From assembly GCA_039638595.1 (NCBI GenBank), contig JBDIWM010000003.1:1-50416 (forward strand): a stretch of DNA of 50,416 nucleotides. Reading direction: 5' to 3'. The DNA comes from Atribacterota bacterium. GTDB taxonomy: Bacteria; Atribacterota; Atribacteria; Atribacterales; Caldatribacteriaceae. The translations under genes were made by a program, and so were the position numbers. Positions 24,387 through 50,416 of this stretch are shown piece by piece; positions within the stretch are counted from its first letter, which is position 1, and each line of letters begins with the position of its first letter. Under the pieces are notes generated by a model. The model had not been told where the DNA came from and did not search any database. It saw only the letters and a program-made list of their open reading frames with translations.

Positions 24387-24419
24387 ATGGATTCCGGGGA
24401 AGAAAGTTGGGGGGACAAG

Positions 24420-26384
24420 GTGGAAAGGCATTATCGTTCTCCGGAGGAGTTCTCTCAAGAGAAGAGAAAGAAAAAAACGCTCTTTTTGCTTTCGTTATTC
24501 GTTGCCACTTTTCTTTTTCACGGATTTTTTCTGGTCCTGAGTAGGACTTTTCTTCTGTCCTGGCGGTTTATGGTGAATAGCCTGGTGATTCTTTTGCTGG
24601 CATTTTTCTCGTACTGGTGCCTCTTTGGAGTCTTCCGTTCGACATTTTCTGGATGGGGTTGCGGTTTGTTTTTTAGGAGAAGCGCTTTTCCTCCTGGAGT
24701 ATCCGTCGCTCTTAGTGTTACAGGAAGCCTTGCATTGAGCGCTACTTGTAGGTGGGTCCCTGTTTTTGCTTCTGGGGGTCTGACAGGAAAAAAAGCAATC
24801 TTTGTATCTAGGGATCGAAGCATTGTTGGAACAAATAAATAAGCCGGCTCTTTTTCTGGACCGAGAAGGATGGATTCAGGGAATTAACGAAAAAGGCACC
24901 AACCTTTTGGGATATATGCCTTTAGACCTTAAAGGCCGTTCTTTTGTCCAGTTTCTTCCCTCGGCAATACAGGAAAAGGCCTGGGACTATTTTTGGAAAA
25001 TTCGGGAGGGGAAAAGTGAACGTGTCTTGCTCTGGCTGAGGACTAAGGAAGGAAAAGAAGTTCTGGTGCGAGTCACTCCTCTTTTCCCCATGCCTGAGAA
25101 TGAAACCGGAATCATTTTTGAACTGGAAGATGTTGCGAAGAGCCAAAGTCACTGGTTGTCCCTCTATCGGGAATGGCAACGATTGCGAAACTACCTGGAA
25201 GCCGTGCGGGATATTTTCCTTATCCTTGATGAAGAGGGGAAAGTGCAGTACATCAATCGGACAGGGAGTGTTCCTCTGGGATTTAAAAGAAAAGCTATTT
25301 TGGGAAAGACCTTGGAAGGTTTTTTCAAGGACGGAGAACGGGTGCAGGGAGAGTTGATTTTTCGCAAACTTCGGGAGGGTGAACCAATTCCCGAGCGTGA
25401 GCGCTTTATCAAGATTCTCAATACTAGGGGCGAAATGCGGCAATCCGCTGGAATTACCGGACTCTTTTGGATTCAGCTGGTGCGGTGCCGGGTTTTGCCT
25501 TCTCGGGTATCGATGTCACCCAGGAAATGTACCACTGGGAAGAACTCCAGCGTGACCATCTTTTTCAGCGGACCCTCCTTGACCTTATTCATCGGGCACT
25601 AACGGGAGATTCAGTTAGGTCAGGTGCTTTCTGGCGTCAGGTGGTGACATTGCTGAAGTCCGTTTTTGATGCGGAAGAAGCCTTGTATCTTGAGAGGATG
25701 AACGGAGAGAGTTTTTGTGGTGGTGGGAGCGGAGCAGGACGGAAGAAACGGACAGAGAAGCACTGTATCTGGTGAGCTTGCAAGTCTTTTCCTGTTCGGG
25801 AGGAGAGGGAAGTCTTTCACTGGCATAAACATACAGCGGGTGCAAGTACTCCAGAAAACCTTCGAACTCCTCCGTTATAGAATGCAAACCGAAGCTGAAC
25901 CCCTCCACCTTTTTTCTCATGATTTCCTGACCGGGACCCTGAACCACAAGGCTTTTCGGGAGAATGGAAAGGAAATTTTGCCTCTTGTCGAACGGTATCA
26001 GTGGCCTTTTTCTTTGGTTTTTCTGGACGTGGATGACTTTAAATCCATCAACGACCGCTTTGACCATCTTTTTGGTGACAGGATGCTGTCATTCTTTGTA
26101 CAACATCTTCGAGCTAACCTCCGCCGTAATGACCCTCTGGCCCGTTTCGGTGGAGATGAGTTTGTGCTTTTACTTCCCCAAACTCCGGGAGAAAAGGCTC
26201 AGGAGCTTCTGGAACGCCTGCAGCGTAGCCCCTTTTCCTTGAGGAAGGGGAAGAGGTCATCTCGCTTCGTTTTTCGGCCGGAGTCAGTGTGTACCCTGAG
26301 GATGGCAAAACCCTGGAGGTCTTGATGGAGGTGGCCGATTGGAGGATGTACGAGAACAAAAAAGCCAAAGAGAAAAGGGCTTGA
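24420..26384 (+). pseudogene. Decayed membrane-PAS-PAS-GGDEF diguanylate cyclase gene
   Basis: Several plus-strand fragments together spell one sensor protein, but the frame is broken repeatedly. An N-terminal part with two or three membrane segments (24420 to about 24650) is followed by a stretch where the later frame contains TGA at 24736 and 24781. PAS domains lie at about 24805-25440 (PALFLDREGWIQGINEKG; DIFLILDEEGKVQYINRTG). A frameshift near 25440-25453 leads into WNYRTLLDSAGAVPGFAFSG; another at the T5 run 25712-25716; then a GGDEF domain (LTGTLNHKAF, VFLDVDDFKSINDRFDH, RFGGDEFVLLLPQ) that shifts once more at about 26228-26237 into FSAGVSVYPEDGK and ends with TGA at 26382-26384. The GGDEF motif itself is intact. 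Separate lesions including nonsense codons suggest real decay rather than only sequencing error. Confidence 0.8.
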
Positions 26385-30596: not shown

Positions 30597-31537
30597 ATGT
30601 TCGAGGTTGTCTGTGTGGGGATTGCCTGTGCTGATGTTCTGGTAAAGCCAATTTCCAGGTTTCCAGGGAGAGGGAAGCTCCAACTCGTTGAAGAACTCAC
30701 CCTTCAATCCGGAGGGTGTGCCCTGAATGCAGCGATCGACCTTGCGAGATTAGGAGTTTCCACTGCCATCGTGAGCAAGGTGGGGAACGATGGATTTGGA
30801 CGATATCTCCTGGAGACACTGAAGAGGGAGGGGGTCGATGTAAGGGGGTGGTGATTGATCCCTTAGCCCCAACCTCGGCTTCGGTAGTGCTCATTGACGA
30901 GGAGGGTGAACGATCCATCGTTCACCTTCTGGGAGTCAGTGCCCAATTTGCCGCTCTGGATATTAACCTCGATTTAGTCAGGTATGCCAAAGCGCTCTTG
31001 ATTGCTGGCACTTTTCTTATGCCTCTTTTCGATGGTGAAGGTACAGCCTGGCTGGCACGATTTGCTCGCGAGGAAGGAATCCTCGTGTGCATGGACACTG
31101 CCTGGGATTCAAGTGGTCAATGGTTTCAGAAAATCGGGGGTGCCCTGCCTTACCTGCACTTGTTTATGCCCAGTTACGAAGAGGCGAAAGTCTTAAGTGG
31201 CCATGACCATCCGGAGACAATAGCCAGATTTTTTATCGCTCGGGGAGTGGAGAACGTCGTGATTAAGTTAGGGGAGGAAGGGTGCTATGTGGCATCGGCT
31301 TCAAAAAACGAAGCTTTTTATGTCCCTTCCTACCGGCTGGAACACGTGGTTGACACCTCAGGTGCCGGAGATGCATTTTGTGCTGGGTTTATCTGTGGGC
31401 TTCTTTCTGGTTTCAGTATCAAACGGTGTGCCCAGTTCACCAATGCTGTTGCGGCGCACTGCATTATGGAGATTGGGACTACCAGGGGAGTGAAAGACAA
31501 AGAAACCATCCTTAAGATGATGAGTGAGCATCGGTGA
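30597..31537 (+). pseudogene. PfkB-family sugar kinase, interrupted by one frameshift
   Basis: Two plus-strand frames together give one ribokinase-like protein of about 313 residues. The first (30597-30854) reads MFEVVCVGIACADVLVKP ... LQSGGCALNAAIDLARLG ... KVGNDGFGRYLLETL. The second continues from about 30849 with GVVIDPLAPTSASVVLIDEEG to VKDKETILKMMSEHR. The break is at a G5 run (30844-30848); one extra G would restore EGVDVRGVVIDP. The ATP/anion-hole motif DTSGAGDAFCAGF with the catalytic Asp is intact. A homopolymer sequencing error is as likely as a true mutation. It would phosphorylate a sugar or nucleoside. It is divergent from the dehydrogenase operon, sharing its promoter palindrome, and has GAGGGG as ribosome binding site. 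Confidence 0.82.
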
Positions 31538-34643: not shown

Positions 34644-34898
34644 TTGTGGTGCGTAACGAGTGATTTACGCTACTTTAGTTTGGATAACGAATCGCCGGTC
34701 CGGGAAAAGAAAGGGCGAATCAGGGAAGGAATCGCGGTGATGGTTCGGGGATGCACCAAAGGGATAGCGAAAAAATGGTTATACCATGGGGAACGGAGCT
34801 TTGAGGTACTTTCTTCGGGAAGCGCCGGGAAATGGGATATTTTTTATCCCACTGGTGAACGCGTGCTGAAAGACGTTAAAATAACGCTTCGCCTTTGA
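34644..34898 (+). CDS. Possible small protein, 84 residues
   Basis: A TTG start at 34644 follows GGAGG (34633-34637) at good distance. The C-terminal half (SFEVLSSGSAGKWDIFYPTG, then VLKDVKITLRL) looks like a small beta-rich domain, whereas the first 30 residues are less convincing. It is convergent with the PBP1C gene and overlaps its 3' end by 23 bases. No family is recognised. If not real, the interval 34529-34875 holds only the operon promoter on the minus strand and otherwise nothing recognisable. Confidence 0.35.
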   Translation: MWCVTSDLRYFSLDNESPVREKKGRIREGIAVMVRGCTKGIAKKWLYHGERSFEVLSSGSAGKWDIFYPTGERVLKDVKITLRL

Positions 34899-37158
34899 GG
34901 GTCAACGATGGGTACCCCACTTCGATGGTCACGGTATCGGTATTTCCAGAGGGCGAAGAAGCCGTGATGGTGTGGGTTCCCGGAGAGAGGGTGACAAAGA
35001 GAGAAGCACCTCTCTTACTTTTTCCCACAAATTCTCCATTCACGAACCAGTACACTTCGTTTTCCTTGGTCTCAGCTCGAAGGGGAAGGCGTAGACCCCG
35101 GGTAAGGGGGTTGGGAAGGTATCGTTTCCCGTCCGCTGGGGAAGCAATGGTGAGCGAGATTGTCGGACTTGTGATGGGTGAAGAGCGTTTTTGATCTTCC
35201 AGATAGAGGCTCAATTCTTTGGGCCAGAGAGTGACCACCTGTCCATTGTCGAAGCGGTGCAGGTTACAAATTTCCAATCTCGACACTCCTTTGATAAAGG
35301 GAGCTTTGCTGCGGTTCTGACAAGCTGGAGAGGGAAGCTTGCCGGAAATGGAACACACTTCTCGCCATTCGATGGTATCGGGGGGAGTGTACCAGGTACT
35401 TTTTCCTTGGCTGAGCTTTTGCATAATTTTGACTGCGAGGGGGGTAGCGGTTTGCAGTCCCACCAGTTCCTGGTGGGGTTTCCCGGAGGGATCCCCATAC
35501 CAGACCACTACGGTGTAATCGGGATTGTAGGCTATAGTCCAGGCATCCCGTAAGCCATAGGAGGTACCGGTTTTAAAGGCAAAAAGGGGGATTGAGCCCC
35601 CTTCTTTGTGGTAAAGAGGGGAAAATCTGGTGCGATCGGCCAGAATGTCGGCGATGAGGTAGGAGGTAGCCGGTGAAAATATACGTTTTCCATTTTTCGG
35701 TGGTGCATCGCGGAGAAAACTCAGCTCGATGGCTTCTCCTTCACGAGCTAAGGTAAGATAGGCTCGAGCCATCTCCAGTGGGGTCGTTTCGCACCCTCCC
35801 AGAATCAGAGCATCACCGTAGTATTCCGGGTTTTTGTTGATATAGGTGAAACCGAGCTGTTGCAGGGTGGAAAGAAAAAGTGAAACACCCACCGCACGCA
35901 TAACCCGTACCGCTGGAACGTTGAGAGAATAGGAGAGGGCGGTACGGCAGTTCACCGGACCTCGGTACCGCTCGTCGAAGTTACGCGGGATATACCCTCG
36001 CAGACCCAGTGGAGTATCAGCAAGAAGTGATGAAGGGGTGTAGCGACCCTCCTCAAAAGCGAGAGCATACGCAAAAGGTTTGAGTGCTGAACCCGGTGAA
36101 CGAGGGGCCTGCACACAGTCTACCCAGTCTCCCTCTTCTTCGAATCGGGCATTTCCCACATAGGCGAGAACCTGTCCGGTTTTATTCTCCACGATCAGGG
36201 CACAGGCGGTCACTTCTTTGGGAAGAGTGGCAACGGCTTCTTTCATCGCTTTTTCAAGCCAGATTTGGAGTTCAAAGGAAAGAGAGGAAAAAACCGGGGA
36301 AGGGAAGAGGGTGCGGAGGAATTCGGTTGCATGGTAAGCATACCGGGGGAATCCGGCTGGTTTTGGGGGAAGGGATTCTTTGGTAGCCATGGCGTACTCG
36401 ATTGTGGTAATAACCCCACGCCGATAGAGGATATCAAGGATGATAAGGCGTTTCCTCTTTGCCCGTTCCGGGTATTTATCGGGTCGGAGCCGTTCTGGCT
36501 CGGGAAGCATGCCGATGAGGATTGCAGCTTCTCCGAGGGAAAGGTTACGGGCATTTTTCCCAAAATAGAAAAGGGAAGCTGCTTCCACCCCCCGGATATT
36601 CTTGCCTAAGGGGACCCGGTTTAGATAGGTTTCGAGGATTTTTTCTTTGGAAAGACGCCGTTCCAATTTCAGGGCCATCACGACTTCTTTCGTTTTCTGG
36701 AAGATACTCCTTTCCCCAGGATGGGTCATGCGGATGAGCTGAGTCGTTATGGTGGAAGCACCGGAAACGATACGTCGTTCCCGAAAATTATGGAACAAGG
36801 CTCTCCCCAGGGATAGAAAATCAAAGCCCCGGTGGCGGAAAAAACGGCGATCCTCGATTTCGACTGCAAGGAGCGGAAGCCACTTCCCCATGGCGTCGAG
36901 CTCTACCGGAATACACCACTCGTCCTCTACAGAACGAAAAACCCGGAGGATTTTCCCTTCCTGACTCAGGATCAGGGGTGAAGAGGAGTAGGAAAGGATT
37001 CGCTCTGGATTGACCGAGATACTCTGGAAAAGAAACACGAGAAGGATAAGTGGGGCAAAAAAGAGGAAACCCCACTTATCCTTCTGTCCTTTTACTCTCT
37101 CCGTACCACCACGCTCCCCTCTTCGCCAAGTGCTGAGATGGCTGGATTGTACATGCAC
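34876..37158 (-). CDS. pbpC: Penicillin-binding protein 1C
   Basis: 760-residue bifunctional cell-wall synthase: membrane anchor (about 30-50), glycosyltransferase GT51 domain (EIEDRRFFRHRGFD, SGASTITTQLIRM, ETYLNRVPLGKN), transpeptidase domain with SxxK in RSPGSALKPFAYAL, SxN in SYSLNVPAVRV and FAFKTGTSYGLRDAW, and the C-terminal PBP1C beta domain (VYWFVNGEFVGKS). All catalytic motifs are intact. The only visible start, ATG 37158, overlaps the upstream macroglobulin gene by 67 bases, because no other ATG/GTG/TTG occurs in frame before the anchor. PBP1C next to alpha-2-macroglobulin is the same pairing as pbpC-yfhM of enterobacteria. Confidence 0.93.
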   Translation of the reverse strand: MHVQSSHLSTWRRGERGGTERVKGQKDKWGFLFFAPLILLVFLFQSISVNPERILSYSSSPLILSQEGKILRVFRSVEDEWCIPVELDAMGKWLPLLAVEIEDRRFFRHRGFDFLSLGRALFHNFRERRIVSGASTITTQLIRMTHPGERSIFQKTKEVVMALKLERRLSKEKILETYLNRVPLGKNIRGVEAASLFYFGKNARNLSLGEAAILIGMLPEPERLRPDKYPERAKRKRLIILDILYRRGVITTIEYAMATKESLPPKPAGFPRYAYHATEFLRTLFPSPVFSSLSFELQIWLEKAMKEAVATLPKEVTACALIVENKTGQVLAYVGNARFEEEGDWVDCVQAPRSPGSALKPFAYALAFEEGRYTPSSLLADTPLGLRGYIPRNFDERYRGPVNCRTALSYSLNVPAVRVMRAVGVSLFLSTLQQLGFTYINKNPEYYGDALILGGCETTPLEMARAYLTLAREGEAIELSFLRDAPPKNGKRIFSPATSYLIADILADRTRFSPLYHKEGGSIPLFAFKTGTSYGLRDAWTIAYNPDYTVVVWYGDPSGKPHQELVGLQTATPLAVKIMQKLSQGKSTWYTPPDTIEWREVCSISGKLPSPACQNRSKAPFIKGVSRLEICNLHRFDNGQVVTLWPKELSLYLEDQKRSSPITSPTISLTIASPADGKRYLPNPLTRGLRLPLRAETKENEVYWFVNGEFVGKSKRGASLFVTLSPGTHTITASSPSGNTDTVTIEVGYPSLTLKGEALF

Positions 37159-40100
37159 TCTGCCTTGACCTGAGGGATGGCGAACCTTCCCGCGGTAATG
37201 GCCCGTACCGTGTAACGGTATTCAAAGGTTCCATGAAGGTTGGGTATAAAGAGGATCAGCCGATCATCCCGGATTTCAAGATGGAGCGGGGAGCTCTCTT
37301 CTTCCCCCTCGTAACTGACGCTTGTGGCCAGGCGTGGATTTTCCACCTCCAGTCCCCCAGGAAGTGGATCAACGATCACCACGTTTTCTAAAGGCTGGGC
37401 TGTGGCGACCTGGAGGAGCACTTCGAGTATCTCTCCTCGTTTCACATTCTGAAGGTTCTGGGGATTGCCAGTAGTATTGAGATAGGTCCGTTTGATTTCT
37501 ATTCCATGTTGCCATGGTTTTTGGGGAGTGATTGGGAATCCGCTGATATTCCAGAGATAAAAGAGTCTTCCTGAGACCTGGTTCTCAATCTGGAAGGAGG
37601 AGGGAAGAGTCTCCGTGGAAAGGGTTACCTTTTCTTGGTTCACAAACTGCTGGATTTCCCGGCCAGTGGTATCATACATGGTGAAAGTAATATAGGGGAG
37701 GAAGGTTTGTCCTGCGAAGTACTCACTGAGAGCCAGAACCAAGAAGGCGCTTTCCTGGGTGGTGAGGTATTCACTTTGGGGGAGGAGCTCGCGGATGCGG
37801 TTGACGATGGTGGTAGCCTGGGCTGAAGATGGGTCAAGTCGGAGGGTAAGGAGGAGTTGCAGGGCCAGTTTCCGCAGCGATGATTCGTAAATCTCTCCGG
37901 TTTGAGGTGCTGTTTCGAAAGTTGGTGTATACCCTCCAGCCAGCTCTAAAGCCACGTCTTTTTGTCCAGCTTCAGCGTAGGCAAGGGCTAACAGTAAAAG
38001 TCCTGATTCATGGAGAAGCGAACGTTTTTCCCGAAGGTGTTCCATCCAGGCTAAAGGCGCTTCGCCCTGAAGGGTAAGGACATAGGCGGCATAAGCCTGG
38101 GATGAAAAGAGGTTGCGCAGGTACCATTCCTCTTCAGAATAGGGCTGGAGAGTCAAAAGGGTGAGGAGAAAATTCCGGGCATCTTGAAGGGTCTCCTGAG
38201 GAATAGGCCATCCTCTCTTTTGGGCTTCCTGCAAGAAATGAGTCGCATAGGCTGAGTCCCAGAAACTGCTCTGCGACCCACCTGGCCAGGGGCTGAAACC
38301 TCCTTCGTAGGTCTGCATGGAGAGAATGCGTCGAATACGCTTTTCCATGGCATTCCTAATTTCGCTTTCGTTAACCAGGAGTGGGTCAACATCCCGTAAA
38401 AGGTCAGGGAGGAGCAGAAGTCCCCAGGCTGAGGAAACGGTCTGTTCCACGCATCCATAGGGGTACTCAAAGAGGAATGATCCGAGGCGCGTCAAGTCCA
38501 CCCTGGGTGATGGAGCAATGGTGCAATACCCCCTGATGCTTCCCGGAAGCCAGGCAGTTGGAAGGTCAACCCGCTTTCGTTCCGATGGTTCGATTTTTCC
38601 GCCCCCGGCAAGGGTGATTCTCGGGGTGATTGGTCGGATGAGGAACGAAACCCGGTCTTCCCGGGTACCACCAGAAAAGATGGTTTTCACGGTGAGGATG
38701 CCTTCTCCCAAGAGGTCTTTTACTTTCATAGTGATGAACTCTATAATTCGCCCACCCGGCGTAATTTCCACGCGTAGTTCCTTGGGACCCTCAATTTCTA
38801 CCAGGCCATTTTCGCTCATTACCACTTCCACCGTTTCGGTATATTCGGAATGCGAAAAGATGGAGAGGGCGACTTCAAAGGCATCACCTGGGGCGACGGC
38901 TTTGGGGGCCACCACTTCGGTGACCACCTTGTCTGTGCTTAAGACCTCCTTTTCTCCGGAACCAAACCGTTCTCCTTTCATGGCTACGGCCACAAGCTTT
39001 AAGCGCCCATCAAAGTCCGGAATTTCAAACTCGGCGCTGGCCTTCCCTTGCGCATCGGTTTTGAGGGTGGGCAGGAAGAACGAAACGATCTTGAATGCCC
39101 GGGGTCGCAGGGGGGCAAATTCGTCGGCCAGAAATTTTGCGGCTTCCCCTCCAGCTGGGTGAAGGAGTGGCGTAGTGGCGAGTTCTGGAGCAATGAGGTC
39201 GTTGTAAGGATCAAAGGTTCCCACCGTGAGCTGTCGTTTTTCATTAAAGAACGTCCAGGGGTCGGGAGTTTTTTCTGCGGTGAGCTGTAGGAGTCCTACG
39301 TCAACGAGTGCCAGTGAAAGTTCTACTCCATGAACCGGATTTCCAAATATATCCCGAACGGTGATTTGTACCGGAAGCGTGGTTTTGGGTCGAATGGTGT
39401 TTGGGGCGTCGATGGTGATGACAAGATGCGTCGGTATGCGGTTAAGAAATACGGGAATGGTTCCCAGGGCCCGACGAGGAAGCGGTTCTTCCGCATCGGC
39501 TTTCCGCACCATGGTCATGGAGCAATAAGCATTGGGACTCATGGCCTCGGTGACAGGAATTGTGATGGTGCCTTTTCCACTCTCGACGTCAATCACCTTT
39601 TGAAAGAGGATGCGATCGGTTTCCACGGTGATGAGTGCTTTCCCAGCAAATGGTGCCTGATAGGTGATGAGCGCTTCTTCACCGGGGTAATAGATCTTTT
39701 GGTCACTTTGCATGGTAATCCGGTCAAACAGAGCTTCCCCTTCGGGGAGAAATCCGTATTTCCCGTAGACAGAGAAACGTTGCGTGGAGGTGTTGCCGGA
39801 TTCAGGGTCACTCACTTCCAGAAGGTATTCACCGTAATTGGAGGGGGTGAAAGTGTATTTCCCCATTCCTCTTGAAAGTGAAATAGCCTCTTCTTTTTGC
39901 AGAGAGAGTTCTTCTTCTGCCTTATACCTCATTTTTCCTTCGCTTTCGGTAAGGACGTAGTGACGAATGACCTGGTAGATCCGGGCAGTGAGCGTGGTGA
40001 TACGTTCTTCCACGTTCCCGTCTGGTTTAACGACTGCAACCTGAAAATCAACCGGTTGTCCAGGTTCCTGGTCTTTCTGGAAATACTTGATACCCAGAAA

Positions 40101-42434
40101 GTAAGGGTAGAGATAAAAGGGAAGTACAAGATGCTGGCTCACCCCTCGTCCGGCTGGGTCGTTCAGGGTGAATGTGAATCTGGCTCGCAGGGAGGGAGGA
40201 GCGATCAAGTCAGCCGGGGTAAGGAAACGCACGGAAGTTCTTCCATGCTCATCCAGTATGCCTTCTCCCAGAGGGAGTTTCAGGGTGGCGAAGGTAATCT
40301 CCGGATTACCAAATTGAAATCCCTGCCAGTTCGGATGAGTGAAGGTATCGGCTTCAATAGTCACTTCACCGGTGTACGGTATTCCGGAAGCCTTGGTTCC
40401 AAAAAGGTATTCACCCTCAAGAAGAATGTCAACCTCCGCCCCCGGGCCTAAGAAATCCCTGTCGCAGGAGAGGGAAAGACGCATACGGGGTGGGGTGAAT
40501 TCTTCGACCAGGAAACTCTTCTCCCCCAGAGGTTGGTTTTCGCCTCCCGGGAGGCTGCAACGGATACGGTATGTCCCGGTGGGAGCGTTCTCGGGAAGAG
40601 TAAAATCGAAGGCTGCACCACCTTCTTCAGAAAGGAGTACCGTCTTTTGGATGAGGGTTCTTCCAAACGGGGTTACCACGGTGAAAAGAAGCGGGAAAGG
40701 AGATGGTGGTGCAAGCGATGGTCCCCGCAGTATAGCTTTAGTGTCGACTTTCTCTCCCGGTCGGAAAACTCCCCGGGGGAGGTAGAGAAAGGTTTCGTAC
40801 CCTCTACGAAGATACTCTTTGCCGGTAACGTCAAATCCACTCAGAGCAAAGAGTTCGTTGCGCAAAACCAGAAAGGAAACATCACCGTTTTGGGAAACCA
40901 TCACCACGTATGGAGCCGTACTTCCTTCACCCCAGGGTTCTTCCCGTTCTAAAAAGAGTACGCCTTCAGCGTCGCACTTTCCTTGGGCCAGAATCTGGTT
41001 GGAACGAGAAAGCACCTTGACTTCAGCACCAGGAATAGGCTGGCCTTTTTCTAAAGAATTCACCCAGATGAGTATACCCCGGGGAAAGAGTTTGGCGGTG
41101 GGGGCAATATCGGTGAGAATCACAATTTGTTCCGCCCGAATCCAGGTTGAGGCTTCGTCTTCAGCGGTGAGGAGATATGCTCCTCGCTTTCCACCAGTGA
41201 GCATTTCTAAATCAATGGCTTTGCGGGTGAGTGTGTTAGGCTGGGCGTCGTTAAAGAGAACTTCTTCGTAGACGAGCTCTGAAAGAAGATCTGGGGGTAT
41301 ACCGTAGACTTCTGCGAAGGCCAGTGGGAGATTGTTTTCGTAAATTCTCCAGAGACTGAGTTTAACCCGATTAACGTTCACCGTTTCGACTGGTATACGG
41401 GCACCCCTGGTTGGAGAAAGGTAAATGCCCCGGGTGGGGAAGGCAATCGAAGGATACACATCGGGGATGATGAATGCCTTGACAAAATCTTTCTGAAGTT
41501 TCGCCCCGGTTTGAGCGTTAAGCCCTTTTTTGAGGGTCACCACCAGGCGGCTGCGAGGTGCGAAGTTGCCGGTGATTTCAAATCCGTAATACGTGGTTCT
41601 CACGGTAAAGGGAGTGGAGGGGTCAATCTGGATGAAACTGTGAAGGGTGCGAGGGTCCGGCGGTGTGGAAGTGTTGAAAGAGATGGTTACATTCTTTGGT
41701 CCTGTAAAGTAGACGTAGCTTCCGGTGATTTCAAACTCGTAGGTAGCTTCGAGTTTCTTTTGGTAATTTGTTTCTAATCCCAGCGGTCCCTTTTCGCTGG
41801 TTAATCCTGCCAGAATCTCCAAAAACACAGTTGGGCTTTGGAGGGGTGAGGTGGTGAGAAAGAGCTTGGTGCTTGCTGGTCCAAGGGGAAGCTGGTACGG
41901 GATTTCCTGCCCTTTTTCATTCTTTAAGGTGAGAAACCCCCGTAGTTTCTGGGGCGAAACCGGGAGAGAAAAATCGATTTGAATGACGATGCTCCCGTCC
42001 GGATTATAGTCAACCTGCTTGGCCTCTTTGACCTTAAGGGGTGCGGTTTTGAAGGTGAAATCGTGCCGTCCGGAGAGGAGCCTTCCTTCTTTGTCGGCAA
42101 AATCGTCGTTGAACCGGAAGGTGTAGATGGTGGCTTCCTTCAGGGCCCCCTTAAGTTTTACCAAGAGCGTTTTCGGGTCTTCCCACCGGAATTGTCCGGG
42201 AAGGTGGGGAGTAATCCGAAAAGGAGCCTGGATGATGTCCTGGGCCATTCCCACGTTTTCGCTTTTGACCATCTCGGCCGAGAAAGTCACCTTTATCTCT
42301 GAAAGGTTCAGCGGTACAACCGAATCAGGTGCTGGAACAATGGAAACGATAACCGGTCCCGAGGAGTCCTGTGCCAGAAGAGGCAGGGCACAGAAAATTC
42401 CCAAAAGGAGAATAAGAAAAAAAATGACTTTCAT
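37092..42434 (-). CDS. Alpha-2-macroglobulin family protein with thioester motif
   Basis: 1780 residues, exported (signal peptide ending LPLLA; no lipobox). Bacterial alpha-2-macroglobulins trap foreign proteases in the periplasm: cleavage of a bait region exposes a Cys-Gln thioester that bonds to the attacker. Here the motif is PYGCVEQTV, with Cys at about residue 1328 and Gln three residues on. Before it come repeated MG beta-sandwich domains (YLPRGVFRPGEKVDTKAILR, TLPVQITVRDIFGNPVHGVE), after it the alpha/alpha thioester domain (PWPGGSQSSFWDSAYATHFL) and a receptor-binding-like beta domain. It is slightly longer than E. coli YfhM. ATG 42434 has GGGAGGG upstream. The linked pbpC suggests a joint role in defending and repairing a breached wall. 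Confidence 0.93.
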   Translation of the reverse strand: MKVIFFLILLLGIFCALPLLAQDSSGPVIVSIVPAPDSVVPLNLSEIKVTFSAEMVKSENVGMAQDIIQAPFRITPHLPGQFRWEDPKTLLVKLKGALKEATIYTFRFNDDFADKEGRLLSGRHDFTFKTAPLKVKEAKQVDYNPDGSIVIQIDFSLPVSPQKLRGFLTLKNEKGQEIPYQLPLGPASTKLFLTTSPLQSPTVFLEILAGLTSEKGPLGLETNYQKKLEATYEFEITGSYVYFTGPKNVTISFNTSTPPDPRTLHSFIQIDPSTPFTVRTTYYGFEITGNFAPRSRLVVTLKKGLNAQTGAKLQKDFVKAFIIPDVYPSIAFPTRGIYLSPTRGARIPVETVNVNRVKLSLWRIYENNLPLAFAEVYGIPPDLLSELVYEEVLFNDAQPNTLTRKAIDLEMLTGGKRGAYLLTAEDEASTWIRAEQIVILTDIAPTAKLFPRGILIWVNSLEKGQPIPGAEVKVLSRSNQILAQGKCDAEGVLFLEREEPWGEGSTAPYVVMVSQNGDVSFLVLRNELFALSGFDVTGKEYLRRGYETFLYLPRGVFRPGEKVDTKAILRGPSLAPPSPFPLLFTVVTPFGRTLIQKTVLLSEEGGAAFDFTLPENAPTGTYRIRCSLPGGENQPLGEKSFLVEEFTPPRMRLSLSCDRDFLGPGAEVDILLEGEYLFGTKASGIPYTGEVTIEADTFTHPNWQGFQFGNPEITFATLKLPLGEGILDEHGRTSVRFLTPADLIAPPSLRARFTFTLNDPAGRGVSQHLVLPFYLYPYFLGIKYFQKDQEPGQPVDFQVAVVKPDGNVEERITTLTARIYQVIRHYVLTESEGKMRYKAEEELSLQKEEAISLSRGMGKYTFTPSNYGEYLLEVSDPESGNTSTQRFSVYGKYGFLPEGEALFDRITMQSDQKIYYPGEEALITYQAPFAGKALITVETDRILFQKVIDVESGKGTITIPVTEAMSPNAYCSMTMVRKADAEEPLPRRALGTIPVFLNRIPTHLVITIDAPNTIRPKTTLPVQITVRDIFGNPVHGVELSLALVDVGLLQLTAEKTPDPWTFFNEKRQLTVGTFDPYNDLIAPELATTPLLHPAGGEAAKFLADEFAPLRPRAFKIVSFFLPTLKTDAQGKASAEFEIPDFDGRLKLVAVAMKGERFGSGEKEVLSTDKVVTEVVAPKAVAPGDAFEVALSIFSHSEYTETVEVVMSENGLVEIEGPKELRVEITPGGRIIEFITMKVKDLLGEGILTVKTIFSGGTREDRVSFLIRPITPRITLAGGGKIEPSERKRVDLPTAWLPGSIRGYCTIAPSPRVDLTRLGSFLFEYPYGCVEQTVSSAWGLLLLPDLLRDVDPLLVNESEIRNAMEKRIRRILSMQTYEGGFSPWPGGSQSSFWDSAYATHFLQEAQKRGWPIPQETLQDARNFLLTLLTLQPYSEEEWYLRNLFSSQAYAAYVLTLQGEAPLAWMEHLREKRSLLHESGLLLLALAYAEAGQKDVALELAGGYTPTFETAPQTGEIYESSLRKLALQLLLTLRLDPSSAQATTIVNRIRELLPQSEYLTTQESAFLVLALSEYFAGQTFLPYITFTMYDTTGREIQQFVNQEKVTLSTETLPSSFQIENQVSGRLFYLWNISGFPITPQKPWQHGIEIKRTYLNTTGNPQNLQNVKRGEILEVLLQVATAQPLENVVIVDPLPGGLEVENPRLATSVSYEGEEESSPLHLEIRDDRLILFIPNLHGTFEYRYTVRAITAGRFAIPQVKAECMYNPAISALGEEGSVVVRRE

Positions 42435-44183: not shown

Positions 44184-44211
44184 AGGTTGAGGGGGTTGAC
44201 CCCCTCAACCT
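44184..44211 (-). terminator. Perfect 12-bp hairpin at the end of the CHAT operon
   Basis: AGGTTGAGGGGG and its complement flank a 4-base loop. The stem overlaps the last base of the stop codon of the DcrB-like gene. Read on the minus strand there is no U tract after it, so termination may be inefficient or may need a factor. Confidence 0.6.
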
Positions 44212-45218
44212 TACTGTGCTTCGATCCGGGTAAAAAACACTTCAATCCATGGGGAAGCGTTCTGGTATTCGGTGGTCGGTAAAACAAGGAGGATAAGGAG
44301 GGTTTTGCCAGAGAGGGTCCCTACCAATGTGGCATACTCCACGCCGGTTTCAGGGTTTTTCGAACTATAGAGGGCCACCTGAACGGGATTTCCCGTGAAG
44401 CTTTGCAACTGAGAGGCACCGTGAAAATTCTTCCCCTGGACAGCCTGGGCCACGATTCCCTGGACTGCGGCGTCGTTCTCCAGTGCCATAATCACCAGTT
44501 GTCCCTGATTGGGGGTGGCGTACACCGCGCCATTATCGAGTTTCTGGGTAAGGGAAGCGCCCTGGGGGAGAGGAATGCGAAATCGTCCTTGAGGGTTCTG
44601 ATACGTCCAATACTCAGAACTCGTAGTTTCTGGAACACTAAGACTTGGAAGTCCCTGGGATGGAGCTGTGGTAGATGATGGTGGGGTGTAGGGTGTTGCT
44701 GTGGAAAGGCTATCAACGACGATGAGTCCGCGGGTAATCTCAATAAGTTGGGGCTCAAGCTGGAAAAATTGGGTGCTCAGGCAGTCGAAAAGAAGGGTAT
44801 ACACTTGATTGTCAAGGAGGAAAAGAAACGCCAGTCCTTGTAGTTCATTGGGGTTCCCCTGGACTCGAAAGAGAAACTCGTGACGCAGGCCCGAAAGACC
44901 GCTCCATTCAAAAGGAGTGGTTTCCTGAAGGGTATAGCTTTAGAAAAGGGTCAGTAGGGATTGACTCACCTGCTGGAAGTAGTCCTGGAGAGTGAGGGAA
45001 GCCGGTACCGGTTCGGTGGCAAAAATGAGTTCGGCTTGCGCAATTCCCTGCTCATTGATGAGGAAGGCACGCAATTTCTGTTGCGGGGTGAGGGGTTCAA
45101 CCGGTGTCCAGCCAGGAGGGATATTCAGAGTCAACCCTCTTTCCCCAAAGGCTTCCTGAACAAAGATTGCTAAGCAAAGGGTGATGACCAGGATAAGAAA
45201 AACCATTCTTTTCATCAT
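44211..45218 (-). pseudogene. Exported protein with DcrB/PsbP-like domains, broken by an in-frame TAA
   Basis: One uninterrupted frame of 336 codons apart from a single TAA at 44940-44942 (codon 93). Before the stop: signal peptide (LILVITLCLAIFVQEAFG) and LNIPPGWTPVEPLTPQQ ... TLQDYFQQVSQSLLTLF. After it the same frame continues SYTLQETTPFEWSGLSGLRH and then a second similar domain (YQNPQGRFRIPLPQGASL ... ALYSSKNPETGVEYATLVG). Both halves look like the Mog1/PsbP/DcrB fold of small secreted domains; this is a visual judgement. Start ATG 45218 has AGGAGG upstream. A point mutation of a Lys, Gln, Glu, Leu, Ser or Tyr codon explains the stop; read-through cannot be excluded. Last gene of the CHAT operon. 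Confidence 0.78.
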
Positions 45219-45230
45219 TATCAACCTCCT

Positions 45231-47363
45231 TTATTGTTCTTTCCCAATCAGAATGAAGGGAGCCCAGTGGAAAGGGTGTTCATACGTGTTTGCCACATCA
45301 ATCTGGGCTCGCCAGAGGGCTTCCGCTTTGGGAAGTCCCTCCACAATGTGGCGATAAAAATTCACGAAGAGGTCTCTGGTGGAGCGGTCGCTCACACTCC
45401 AGAGGCTGGCGATGAGCGATGATGTCCCAGCGTAGAAAAAGGAACGGGTGAATCCAATGAGTCCTTCAGTAGGACTGTATTGCCCCAAAGCGGTCTGGCA
45501 GGCACTTAAAACCACGAGGTCAGTCTGCAAGGTGGTGAAAAAAATCTCTCCAGCCAGAAGGAAACCGTCGTTTTCCCGGTCGGGAGCAAGGAGAATCGTG
45601 CTCTGAAGAGGGGATTGCTCGTCTGGTGAACCATGTGTGGAGAGATGCACGATGCTGGCTTGTTGGACCAATCGGTAAAAGGCAGATTCTGTAGCCTCTT
45701 CGCCGAAAAGGAGCAGAGGATTTGGGAATAGTTGGCCAATCGTTCTCACCTCTTCCTCGGCCCCCGGAAGAGGGGGAATATCGGGATCAGAAAATTTTGG
45801 GTTTCCAAAACCCAGAAATCGCCCCGAAGGGTTCCCCTCTTTCTTTCGAGAATAGAAGTAGGTATTGAGGGAGGGAGCGTAGAAAAAGAGATACTCTCCT
45901 AGGAGATACCGCCCTCTTCGGGTAAGGGCCTGAAAGGGAAGAAAAGAGAGGGAACGATGGGGGATAAGGAGTATTTTTGTTTTCTCTTGGAAGTGTTCTT
46001 CCAGGGGAACAAAGAGTGTTTCACACAGAGCATTGGTAAGAGAGACAAAGTCTTCTTCTGTAGGGCTGGCGAGTTTCTTTCGCAAAAGAGCAACTTTTTC
46101 GTAGAGCACGTTTTCCCCCACTGGGAGTTCAAAGCCACTGATGGTCGAAGTGGTGATAATCCAGACGAAGGTCTTGTCTGGAAGGACAAAGTAATCGAGC
46201 ACCACCACATCTTCGGGAATTGATTTTTGCATCTCGTAAAACGATAGAGGAGAGACTGCGACCATTGACAGAAGTTCCGGGGAAGAGATTTTTAGTTCCT
46301 CATAGAGGAGATGGAGCTTTTTCTCCACCTGGGCCAATTCTTCGGTAACTTTCCAGAGTGCTATCGTGTCCTGTCTTACCTCGACCTTTTTGGCTTCAAG
46401 ACGCGCTTTTTCCCGTTCCCAGGCCTTGATCTTCTCCATTACCTCCATGTCTTTGGATTTCACCTGTACCGATTGTCCCACCATCACATCAAGGAAACTC
46501 CTGGCTTTTACTCGCTCGGAGAGATTGAAGGCTTCTTCGATTCTTCCCTCACGGAAGAGCGCTTCCATGAGAAACTCATATACCGCAAGCCGGCTCTGGG
46601 TGAGACAAATGCGATCACTCACTTCCTCCATCCGATTACGGGTTTTCTCCACGATTTCGATGGCTTCATGGAGATGTATGAAGGCCTTCTCCTTCTCATT
46701 ACGCTTCAACTCCACTTCTCCAAGCCCCAGAAGGGCGTAGAAACGCAATGACCGGAGGGCACTCCCTTCGAGCTCCTGTAAAGCTCTTTCAAAATGGCTT
46801 TGTGCTTCATCAAGGTCATTGTTCTCCATCCTGACGTATCCCAGGTTCATTTCCACCTGAGCCATACCTTCTTTGTCAACAAGCACTTCATAAATGGAGT
46901 GGGCAATATACAGAACCTCTTCGGCCCGCTCAAGGTTTTTAGTCATCACATGGAGACTGGCGATGCTGTTCAAGAGGTTAGCTGTATCTCTTTTGGCATC
47001 GAGCTCTTTGAGTATACGGTAGGCGTGTTCGTAATAAGGAAGGGCTTCTTGGAGTTTTCCCATAGCCTTGTAGAGCATTCCCAAGTTACCAAGGATAAGC
47101 GCTCCACCAGAGTACTGGTCTTTGAGCCCGAATGCTTCCTCATACGCTTTTTTCAAATACCGCTCGGCGTTCCCGAAATCACCCAGGTAGAAGGAAAGAA
47201 CCCCAAGATTGGTCAACACTCCAAGGTCTTCGGACATTTGGTGGCTTTCCTGTATTTCCAGAGCTTCTTTCAGGGCTTTTCTGGCTTCGCCATATTCTCC
47301 CCATCGGGTGAAAAGAACCGCTTGGTTATTGAGCGCCCATACTTTTTCCTGAGGAAGGTCCAT
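45231..47363 (-). pseudogene. C-terminal part of a disrupted TPR-CHAT protein
   Basis: 710-codon frame holding the second half of an exported TPR-CHAT protein. Residues about 1-270 are TPR repeats (WALNNQAVLFTRWGEYGEAR, LGNLGMLYKAMGKLQEALPY). A coiled-coil stretch follows (about 300-355), then a CHAT (caspase-like) domain of about 300 residues. The catalytic dyad is visible: His577 in VHLSTHGSPDEQ and Cys622 in VVLSACQTALGQYSPTEGLI. The frame has no good start of its own: upstream sequence before the 17-bp duplication at 47411-47444 continues it in another frame. If translated from an internal start it would lack a signal peptide and stay cytoplasmic. CHAT proteins are cysteine peptidases activated by partner cues. 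Confidence 0.85.
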
Positions 47364-47377
47364 TCCCTCAGCATGTT

Positions 47378-48196
47378 CTAAAGCAACCCGAAGGTGTTTG
47401 AGGGCTTCATCTTCCTCCCCGAGGTATCTTCCTCCCCGAGGTATTCGCTCAGGATCTGAGCGAGATTGAGGCGAACCACAAGCTCTACCCAGCGCAGATT
47501 CCTTCCTGTGCTGAAAGATAGCGCTCTTTGTGCGTATTCCAGGACTTTTTCCGGGTTTTCTTCCTGGAGAAAAACCCGGCTCATGTGGTTGAGGGTCAGT
47601 CCCCGGGTTTCAGGGTAGAATACCGCTTCCTTTTCGGCTTCTTCCCAGTCTTTTCGGGCTTCACCAAAGCGATTTTCATGGAAATGCATCACCCCCAGAT
47701 GGAAGAGGTACATCTCCTGGTACATCCCTTTGAGGTGCTGGGCAAGTTTTTCCAGTTCTGTAAGGTAGTTCTGAGCTTCTTCCCAGTAATTGAGATTGGT
47801 AGCGACTCGCACCAGGGTTTCGAGGGCTAGAAATTGATACTGCTCATGATGCAGCTTCGTATAGATGGGATAGGCCTGTGCAAGGTGGATAAATGCTTCC
47901 TGAAATTTTCCCTGGCGGGAAAGTGCCCGGGCTGAAAAAAGTTCGTAATGGGCTTGCAGCAATTCGTTGTTGTGGAGAAGCCCGAGAATCATAAAATATC
48001 GGGCTTTCTCCAGAGCTTGGGAGTAATTCCCCTCAAGGTAGAGCCCGTCAATCTCCCGTTCCAGGGTGGTCGCAAAGTCAGGGACTTCTTCTGGCGGGAT
48101 GCGCGCGGATTGAATGATGATGGTGACTCCATCGATGGGTTGTGCCAGGGCAACACCCGAAAAAAATACGACCACAAGAAGAAAAAGTTTTTTCAA
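47378..48196 (-). pseudogene. N-terminal part of the disrupted TPR-CHAT protein
   Basis: 272-codon frame: TTG start with GAGGCGTG upstream, signal peptide (KKLFLLVVVFFSGVALAQ), then helical TPR-like repeats (LEREIDGLYLEGNYSQALEK, EAFIHLAQAYPIYTKLHHEQ, LNHMSRVFLQEENPEKVLEY). It runs out of frame at the 17-bp duplication, adding TSGRKMKPSNTFGLL before a stop. Removing one copy of the duplication joins SEYLGEED to EALKHLRVALEHAEG and the downstream TPRs without any other change, giving one protein of about 980 residues (45231-48196). The export signal places the intact protease in the periplasm or outside. Confidence 0.85.
47411..47444. repeat. 17-bp perfect tandem duplication disrupting the CHAT gene
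   Basis: CTTCCTCCCCGAGGTAT occurs twice in direct succession (47411-47427, 47428-47444). Seventeen bases shift the frame. Deleting one copy restores a single open frame through 45231-48196, so the duplication is the lesion. Tandem copies of this size can be lost by replication slippage, so it may be reversible. Confidence 0.93.
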
Positions 48197-48211
48197 GGTT
48201 CACGCCTCTTT

Positions 48212-49157
48212 TTACTGTGGCAAATTGATTTGGGGCACGCTTCCCCCGGTTGCTGACCCCGCTTTCGCTACGGATTCAAAGGAGGCAATCATGTGGTTGA
48301 AGTACTTTTGCATTTTTTCCTGGAAAACTTCCTGTGGTGCATAGCAAAGAAGAGCTCCCGATAAGGAGTACTGCGCTACGGGTACGTATAGCACGTACGA
48401 TTGGAGCACAATGGTCATATTTCTTCCCTGATAATTTCCACTTAACACCACCTGGCCATAAGTCATGCTGAGGCCAGATTTTGCTGCCTGGGGGTCGCTT
48501 TTGAAATCCTGGCTCTGGATGGCAAGATTCTCCACGTTCTGGGAAAGTATGCCCACCACTTGCTGTGCCAACTCTTCGGCAGTTCTTATCATGGGGTTTT
48601 GGATGGCAAGATACGCGTTCAAAGCCACAAGCCCCGTTGCATCTTCGGCAAATACTGCAGACTTATTAAAAACATCGACGTTGATGAACCACCCGTCCGG
48701 GTATTCCACCACTCCCCTGATAAGGGGGTTATATCCGAAGGCCCGTCCCAGGTCAAACTGTTTCCACCGAATAGTAACCTGAGGTGGGGGGAGTAATGGT
48801 AATCCCTCCTGGCTGAGTCTGTCCTCCGAGATTGGGAAGCAACCCTCCCGAGGCCGGTAAACTCAATGGAGCTTGCGGGGTGGCACCTGGGGAAGGAAGA
48901 CCAGGCGATGGTTCTGTGGTCGTACCACCTATGGGAGGAAGTCCAGGTGGCTCTCCTGGACGAGAAAACGAGGGAAGCCCACTGCGAGTTTCCCCGGAAT
49001 TAAGATTCCCTGAACCTAAAATGGATAGCGAGGATTCCTTTTTGGTATCGATGACGGTCGAGTCAGGAAGAATCAGCAAGTTAGGGTTTTCGTTTGCCAG
49101 CGCCCCAAAAGAGAGAGCGAACACCAGAAAGGTACACGTAAGAACAAAACACTTCAT
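48212..49157 (-). pseudogene. Exported Pro/Gly-rich protein with PsbP/DcrB-like domain, frameshifted
   Basis: Two frames make one gene. The first (49157-48753) has a signal peptide (KCFVLTCTFLVFALSFGALA) and a low-complexity Pro/Gly/Ser linker (PGEPPGLPPIGGTTTEPSPG), and ends shortly after ITITPP. The second frame continues PQVTIRWKQFDLGRAFGYNP, GVVEYPDGWFINVDVFNK and on to 48212. The switch is at a run of six C/G at 48786-48791; five would keep one frame. The C-terminal 180 residues resemble the PsbP/DcrB-like fold, as in the operon's last gene. ATG 49157 has GGAGGGG. First gene of the operon with TPR-CHAT. A homopolymer error or a phase-variable tract are both possible. Confidence 0.75.
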
Positions 49158-49188: not shown

Positions 49189-49194
49189 ATTATA
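49189..49194 (-). promoter_or_regulatory. Putative -10 box (TATAAT) of the CHAT operon
   Basis: TATAAT on the minus strand 31 bases upstream of ATG 49157; no good -35 hexamer. The gap 49158-49226 otherwise holds a small CCCC-AAAA-GGGG hairpin just after the stop of the mannosyltransferase gene. Confidence 0.5.
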
Positions 49195-49226: not shown

Positions 49227-50414
49227 TTACATCACGTACATCCCCCAGGTGTAAGCAAGTACGTAGAGGCAGAGCATGGTGAGAGAGAAAAAGGTCAATA
49301 TTTCATCCAAGATCTTTCTCTGGGAAAGTTGGGCAAGGAAGATATAAAGGGGGAACATGGTCGTCGTGTATCGTGGAGCACTTAAAAGCCAGGTGGCGGA
49401 AAAAGAGATAAAAAGGAGGGTGAACATATAGGCCACATAGGAAAGGCGCATCTGCCAGAGGGAGCCCATGAGACAAATAAGGGAGAGTAAAAGAACGAAG
49501 AGTTGTGGAATCCATAGGGCCACGCGATTAACTGGTTTCCAGGTAAGGACCATGATGACCTGGTTTTTGATGTTCTCGGCGAAAAACCCAAAACCCTGAT
49601 GCCAGTGTTCTCGAAGATAGGTCAAAAAACAGAACCAGTTGCCGGTGACCACACGGTTCAAAAAGAGGTAAAGGAAAATACCCAGCACGATGAGCCCGAA
49701 TCCAGTTAAAAACTGCCCGAAGGTCTTTTTTATTTCCTGGTATGTCCTCTTGCGGACGTGGCCGAAGAGCTCTACGGCTTGCAGGTACTCGATGGAAAAG
49801 GGGATGAGGAGGAAAAAACCAAAATTTCTGGTCAGAGAAGCCAAGAGTCCGAAAATGCCGGCGATAACCCATCGTTTTTGCCTCATGGCATAAAAGCACA
49901 GGACACTCAGGGCCAGAAACAGGCTCTCAGTAAAAACCAGACTAAGGAAAAAGGTATAGGGAAAAATGAGCACCCACTTGACGCATTTTCTGGCTACCGT
50001 GATTGAGTAGTCGAGTTGGACAAGCTTGTAGAGGTAGGTGCAGGCGACGATGAGGCTCACCATGGAGACCATGAGGCCGGCAAGGAAATAGTCTGGAAAA
50101 ACGAAGCGAAAAAGTCGGATGAGAAGAGGATAGAGTGGGAAAAAGACGATGAAAAGTCTCTCTTCACCGGCGTTTGTGTACCAGTTCTCTGCCAGCCACA
50201 GGTAGTGGCTGGAATCCCATCGCTCCCAGATGATGCGGGACGAGGCAACGATGCCAGGCAGTTCGTTGTTGCGCAAAACGTAACCTAAATATCCAAAAAG
50301 GAGAATGGATAAGCGAGTTGCGAGAATCAGAACGAAAACGAAACATACAAGCCGGAGTGTTTTTTGACTTCCAATTCTTGCCCGGAAACTTTTTAGGTAT
50401 GTTTTGACGCGCTG
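49227..50414 (-). CDS. Gpi18/PIG-V-like mannosyltransferase (N-terminus outside the window)
   Basis: At least 395 residues, multi-pass membrane glycosyltransferase. An in-frame TTG exists at 50276, but the frame stays open to the right edge and the extra upstream residues form a membrane segment (LVCFVFVLILATRLSILLFG), so the true start is at or beyond the edge. The luminal catalytic-type motif WERWDSSHYLWLAENWYT, with the acidic residue of WDxxHY, is typical of Gpi18/PIG-V-like mannosyltransferases that use a lipid-linked mannose donor. About nine membrane segments follow, with LASLTRNFGFFLLIPF and LSAPRYTTTMFPLYIFLAQL typical of this fold. Role in surface glycan or protein glycosylation is inferred. 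Confidence 0.8.
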   Translation of the reverse strand, partial: QRVKTYLKSFRARIGSQKTLRLVCFVFVLILATRLSILLFGYLGYVLRNNELPGIVASSRIIWERWDSSHYLWLAENWYTNAGEERLFIVFFPLYPLLIRLFRFVFPDYFLAGLMVSMVSLIVACTYLYKLVQLDYSITVARKCVKWVLIFPYTFFLSLVFTESLFLALSVLCFYAMRQKRWVIAGIFGLLASLTRNFGFFLLIPFSIEYLQAVELFGHVRKRTYQEIKKTFGQFLTGFGLIVLGIFLYLFLNRVVTGNWFCFLTYLREHWHQGFGFFAENIKNQVIMVLTWKPVNRVALWIPQLFVLLLSLICLMGSLWQMRLSYVAYMFTLLFISFSATWLLSAPRYTTTMFPLYIFLAQLSQRKILDEILTFFSLTMLCLYVLAYTWGMYVM

Positions 50415-50416
50415 TA

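Follow-up and report, generated by a model that had tools for sequence, protein, structure and literature searches.

On the minus strand of the 50,416-nucleotide stretch of DNA analysed here (the window), positions 44211-49157 hold what is probably a recently inactivated copy of a conserved cassette, in which a TPR-CHAT peptidase gene (B) lies between two partner genes (A and C), all three products being exported, and a dispensable system has been lost by ordinary mutation. This reading is based on what we observed of gene order and reading frames in relatives, on the CHAT dyad, on N-termini of the export type, and on the presence of one lesion in each gene.

Each gene of the cassette carries its own lesion

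Genes A (48212-49157), B (45231-48196) and C (44211-45224) are adjacent on the minus strand, and each is broken by a different lesion. The initial annotation had described this arrangement, and we confirmed all three lesions in the sequence.

Gene A encodes a signal peptide, a Pro/Gly-rich linker and a conserved domain of ~175 aa, and it is a homologue of the exported proteins encoded upstream of TPR-CHAT in relatives. Its ORF (48753-49157) ends in TGA, and the homologous frame picks up again at ~48784 and continues to 48212. Alignment with a genome of the same genus (G001) shows that the frame is lost within six consecutive C (48786-48791, minus strand), a run not present at that place in G001; the two frames of A differ by a net 2 bases in this alignment.

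Gene B encodes an exported TPR-CHAT peptidase that in relatives is ~1000 aa long. Here it is in two pieces, an ORF with a TTG start and a signal-like N-terminus (47378-48196) and an ORF for the CHAT part (45231-47363). An exact tandem duplication of 17 bp (47409-47442, minus strand; copies at 47442-47426 and 47425-47409), absent from G001, shifts the frame, so that the CHAT part is cut off from the signal peptide and the first TPRs, and there is no intact B frame in this genome. The match to the CHAT profile (Pfam PF12770) reaches 219 bits against a cut-off of 24. The catalytic pair had been described as an intact His/Cys dyad, and this holds: the His (in STHG) and the Cys (in LSAC) are both present, and they are conserved in all homologues aligned.

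The product of gene C has a signal peptide and a pair of PsbP/DcrB-like domains, with a linker rich in Pro, Ser and Thr between them. The ORF of the gene (44940-45224) stops at an in-frame TAA (44940-44942, minus strand), and the same frame runs on to 44211. The homologues aligned have a sense codon there, and the intact C homologue in G002 reads through the site.

Both A and C had initially been assigned PsbP/DcrB-like domains. The assignment stands for C and was not confirmed for A. Members of the gene C family match Pfam PsbP_2 (5e-6), PsbP (7e-5) and DcrB (2e-4), in 3, 3 and 2 of 6 members, respectively; the window fragment of C by itself gives no hit to these three families. The C profile also matches EagT6 and PA0094 weakly (E 0.15); these are Eag chaperones, whose fold falls within the same broad group as that of DcrB. 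The AlphaFold model of C has a pLDDT of 44. For A, the conserved domain gave no Pfam match, the more divergent members of the family gave no PsbP-like hit, the A profile had no significant match to the C profile, and a PDB profile search with A returned nothing significant. The AlphaFold model of the A domain, made from a single sequence, is of low confidence (pLDDT 53), and a PDB fold search with it found no match. PsbP-like hits do occur in two of the ten members of the A alignment, together with zinc-ribbon Pfam hits, and these members are probably the two long homologues, in which additional N-terminal sequence matches the C profile. Such A proteins, of ~770 aa, are found in G046 (L037 10028-12358) and G045 (L038 9253-11547).

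The cassette is conserved among relatives

A search of 61 genomes with the CHAT part found near full-length homologues in eight genomes of the phylum besides this one. The TPR-CHAT proteins of these eight are ~1000 aa long and 35-83% identical. A lies directly upstream in all eight, and C directly downstream wherever the contig goes on; A adjoins the orthologous B in 9/9 genomes. The order A-B-C is the same in G002, G008, G012, G045 and G046, and is partial in G001, G010 and G024, where the contig ends. Among 50 genomes of the phylum, A was found in 9/9 of those with an orthologous TPR-CHAT and in 7/41 of the others (Fisher p 4.6e-6), and C in 16/16 of those with A and 2/34 of those without (p 3e-11). 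The cassette is also absent in patches among relatives, as would be expected of a dispensable trait.

The relatives' genomes are draft assemblies, and their reading frames are mostly open. For example, in G001 the frame of A (309 aa) is open, as is that of B over the 927 residues that precede the contig end. In homologue scans, some A matches (G008, G010, G020 and G023) were each flagged for a single stop codon, and the C match of G045 for one TAA. Because long ORFs are present over these A and C genes, including that of G045, the flags are probably due to matches that overrun the gene ends. From the shared order and mostly open frames, we conclude that A, B and C form a conserved cassette and that, judged by sequence comparison, the cassette is real. 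The three genes do travel together, as had been proposed, and the contrary outcome, in which they would not, was not found. An alternative genetic code, or recoding, was ruled out as well, since the relatives' frames are open without the lesions.

The cassette also looks like one transcription unit, with a conserved element upstream of A and a hairpin after C. A TATAAT element at 49189-49194 (minus strand), 31 bases upstream of A and conserved in G001, is likely the -10 element of the operon promoter, but a consensus scan did not call a promoter at this site. A perfect 12-bp hairpin at 44184-44211 (minus strand; z -4.16), directly after C, likely marks the end of the unit, though no T-run follows it.

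Inactivation is probably recent, and broken genes are not confined to the operon

The broken operon had been described as flanked by intact genes on both sides. This is true of the immediate downstream genes, but the upstream gene (49227-50414), a putative glycosyltransferase with a weak match to PMT_2, is truncated by a 10-N scaffold gap. The gap is at contig position 50417-50426 (L040 418-427), just past the end of the window at 50416 and 1.2 kb from the operon.

Over 65.6 kb aligned to G001, clear breaks are concentrated in the operon and in genes for PAS-GGDEF, PfkB and HEPN proteins. Compared with G001, the PAS-GGDEF (diguanylate cyclase) gene at 24387-26375 is frame-shifted at four or more places, carries a deletion of 120 bp and shows a raised dN, and from its sequence is an older pseudogene than the CHAT operon. 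The PfkB-family kinase gene (30597-31534) has a 1-bp frame break near its start, and the HEPN-domain gene, upstream of the operon past the scaffold gap (contig position 51636-52033; L040 1637-2034), has a 13-bp deletion, both relative to G001. Long core genes have no breaks, for example the 5.3-kb and 2.3-kb genes at 34876-42434. A few more 1-bp differences from G001 fall in short or doubtful ORFs, and several of the contig's lesions affect 1 bp in a homopolymer. Since unrelated accessory genes are broken while core genes are intact, lesions are not special to the operon, and its earlier reading as singled out is not supported. The pattern of breaks is consistent with dispensable genes having decayed recently in this lineage.

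Estimates of selection point the same way. By the Nei-Gojobori method, omega against G001 is 0.07-0.23 for the A and B fragments and 0.04-0.18 for the intact genes of the window. Operon residues altered in one genome only number 64 in this genome and 55 in G001; in intact control genes the corresponding counts are 178 and 110. By these measures the operon is under ordinary purifying selection, with no excess of change on this branch and no indication that constraint has been relaxed for long. The broken genes are thus under selection like that on the intact genes, and the inactivation must be recent or partly error.

It is unlikely that error explains the lesions as a whole, with the organism carrying intact genes and every lesion having arisen in sequencing or assembly, though any single lesion may be an error. 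Errors would give the same lack of a relaxation signal as recent loss does, with conserved omega and no acceleration on the branch. The homopolymer context of the break in A, the other 1-bp homopolymer differences on the contig and the proximity of the scaffold gap are all consistent with them. Against error, the lesions are concentrated in accessory genes and spare the long core genes, and the multiple breaks and raised dN of the PAS-GGDEF gene indicate that real decay does occur on this contig. In addition, neither a 17-bp duplication nor a nonsense substitution is typical of consensus errors. The 10-N gap suggests to us that the assembly is a short-read scaffold, which we assume here, and in such an assembly a duplication of 17 bp, shorter than a read, would be an unlikely artefact.

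The initial annotation favored selection against the system in this lineage, for example because the peptidase had turned harmful. All three genes have indeed been hit, each independently, but once one gene has died, later hits in its partners need no selection. The breakage of unrelated accessory genes on the same contig, the patchy absence among relatives, which suggests dispensability, and the finding that the operon changes no faster, under ordinary purifying selection, also argue against this view, and we regard it as distinctly improbable.

A further explanation is phase variation, in which the C-run and the 17-bp tandem repeat serve as slippage sites that switch the operon on and off. 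Repeats of both types readily undergo slipped-strand mispairing, and each of the two shifts the frame. G001 has neither repeat at the corresponding positions, which means that they are not switches conserved between the genomes. Slippage cannot reverse the TAA in C, and independent switches within one operon would be redundant. Phase variation is therefore very improbable.

Under the preferred reading, recent loss by ordinary mutation, the system would have been dispensable in this lineage. One inactivating event would have been followed by others under relaxed selection, and the loss would be too recent to have raised the substitution rate.

The same partners accompany other central proteins

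Members of the A and C families are also found with proteins other than TPR-CHAT. In G008, G010, G015, G017, G020, G022 and G024, A lies beside a gene for an exported TPR-WD40-caspase (Peptidase_C14) protein of ~1220 aa, some of these genes being cut by contig ends. The C-terminus of this protein is a C-type domain, and several of the loci also have a separate C-type gene. Loci with the exported fusion beside A, mostly together with a C-type gene, include L137 (3325-9655), L131, L133 and L136. An ankyrin-TPR protein with C-type domains is the neighbour of A in G015, G017, G022 and G024. At L134 (2308-8514) and L145 (6952-13106), A and C genes flank a large protein of this kind, in which no recognised peptidase was found. 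A and C occur without a peptidase in G009 and G019, and further A genes are solitary. The solo A-family genes at L139-L143 (genus g8) are divergent from a putative sensor gene and, at most of these loci, from a response-regulator-like gene.

The fusion of a C-type domain to a WD40-caspase beside A and C genes ties these partners to caspase-fold peptidases and, at the level of sequence, is the best evidence that C-type domains may act together with such peptidases. That TPR-CHAT, WD40-caspase and ankyrin-TPR loci share the A and C families suggests a cassette of the envelope in which the central protein can be exchanged. It is possible, though we would stop short of calling it probable, that these are phylum-restricted envelope cassettes, with A and C combined with TPR-CHAT, WD40-caspase or ankyrin-TPR proteins, that form a module for extracytoplasmic caspase-like signalling or cell death with PsbP/DcrB-fold sensors or substrates. 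We found no published description of an A-TPR-CHAT-C cassette in the literature.

Relation to known systems

Export of a CHAT peptidase had been thought unusual. We examined 81 TPR-CHAT homologues of other phyla from 80 loci (Geobacter relatives, cyanobacteria, Acidobacteria, Bacteroidetes and others), and a simple rule based on hydrophobicity, which is a crude heuristic, assigns a signal-like N-terminus to 54 of the 81; the claim of rarity is thus not supported. The exported TPR-CHAT proteins of Geobacter, cyanobacteria, Acidobacteria and Bacteroidetes share with gene B both the TPR-CHAT architecture and the signal-like N-terminus. Unlike the cassette described here, they have no convincing relatives of A or C nearby. 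The 80 loci yielded one weak A-like match (E 0.003, L168) and no C-like match, so A and C look phylum-restricted within the limits of this sample.

Gene B resembles the TPR-CHAT protein Csx29 of Craspase, and HetF, in having the CHAT His/Cys dyad next to TPR repeats. Csx29 pairs with Cas7-11 (PMC10028731, PMC9729208), and HetF is a membrane-associated divisome protein of Anabaena (PMC8406250). In contrast, no CRISPR effector adjoins gene B, whose product is exported together with two dedicated exported partners. A relative of Craspase (type III-E CRISPR) was ruled out, since no large Cas7-11/gRAMP-like gene adjoins TPR-CHAT here or in relatives. The best 60 matches of a TPR-CHAT profile in the PDB were all TPR-type or other repeat proteins. 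PADLOC matched TPR and caspase models and, over the TPR region, gave a weak match to PDC-M71B, a candidate model that is uncharacterised; beyond the generic TPR and caspase models, it gave no match to a described anti-phage defence protein.

Many prokaryotic metacaspases carry WD40 or TPR repeats, and some appear to be extracellular, according to a survey from 2012 (PMC3501461). These metacaspases (C14) have the same architecture as the WD40-C14 proteins of the relatives, which share the A and C partners with the TPR-CHAT operon. The relatives' proteins differ from known metacaspases in being fused to a C-type PsbP/DcrB-like domain and in lying within a conserved cassette, and they are C14 rather than CHAT enzymes. 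Similarly, relatives of gene C match PsbP_2, PsbP and DcrB and so resemble proteins of the DcrB/PsbP/Mog1p fold (the DcrB lipoprotein, PA1624 and the Eag chaperones). Gene C differs from these in having two copies joined by a linker and in its linkage to a peptidase, and the matches are weak. The functions of DcrB-type proteins are diverse (PMC7716261, on DcrB and Mog1p/PsbP).

Proposed mechanism and significance

We postulate that in relatives with an intact cassette, TPR-CHAT would be a caspase-fold cysteine peptidase of the cell envelope, and that its TPR region may bind the A and/or C proteins. A and C could act as sensor, scaffold or substrate, with their linkers, rich in Pro, Ser and Thr, as plausible cut sites, and an envelope signal would then release a proteolytic response. 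The occurrence of A and C without any peptidase (in G009, G019 and the solo A genes) speaks against a mechanism in which they act as partners of a peptidase.

Bacterial CHAT and caspase-like peptidases are best known from intracellular systems, among them CRISPR and further conflict systems. Here a conserved cassette encodes such a peptidase for export along with two dedicated partner proteins, which are also used with another type of caspase-fold enzyme. It provides concrete candidates for the sensors or substrates of extracytoplasmic caspase-like proteolysis. The broken copy described here suggests that the system is dispensable and is being lost in at least one lineage.
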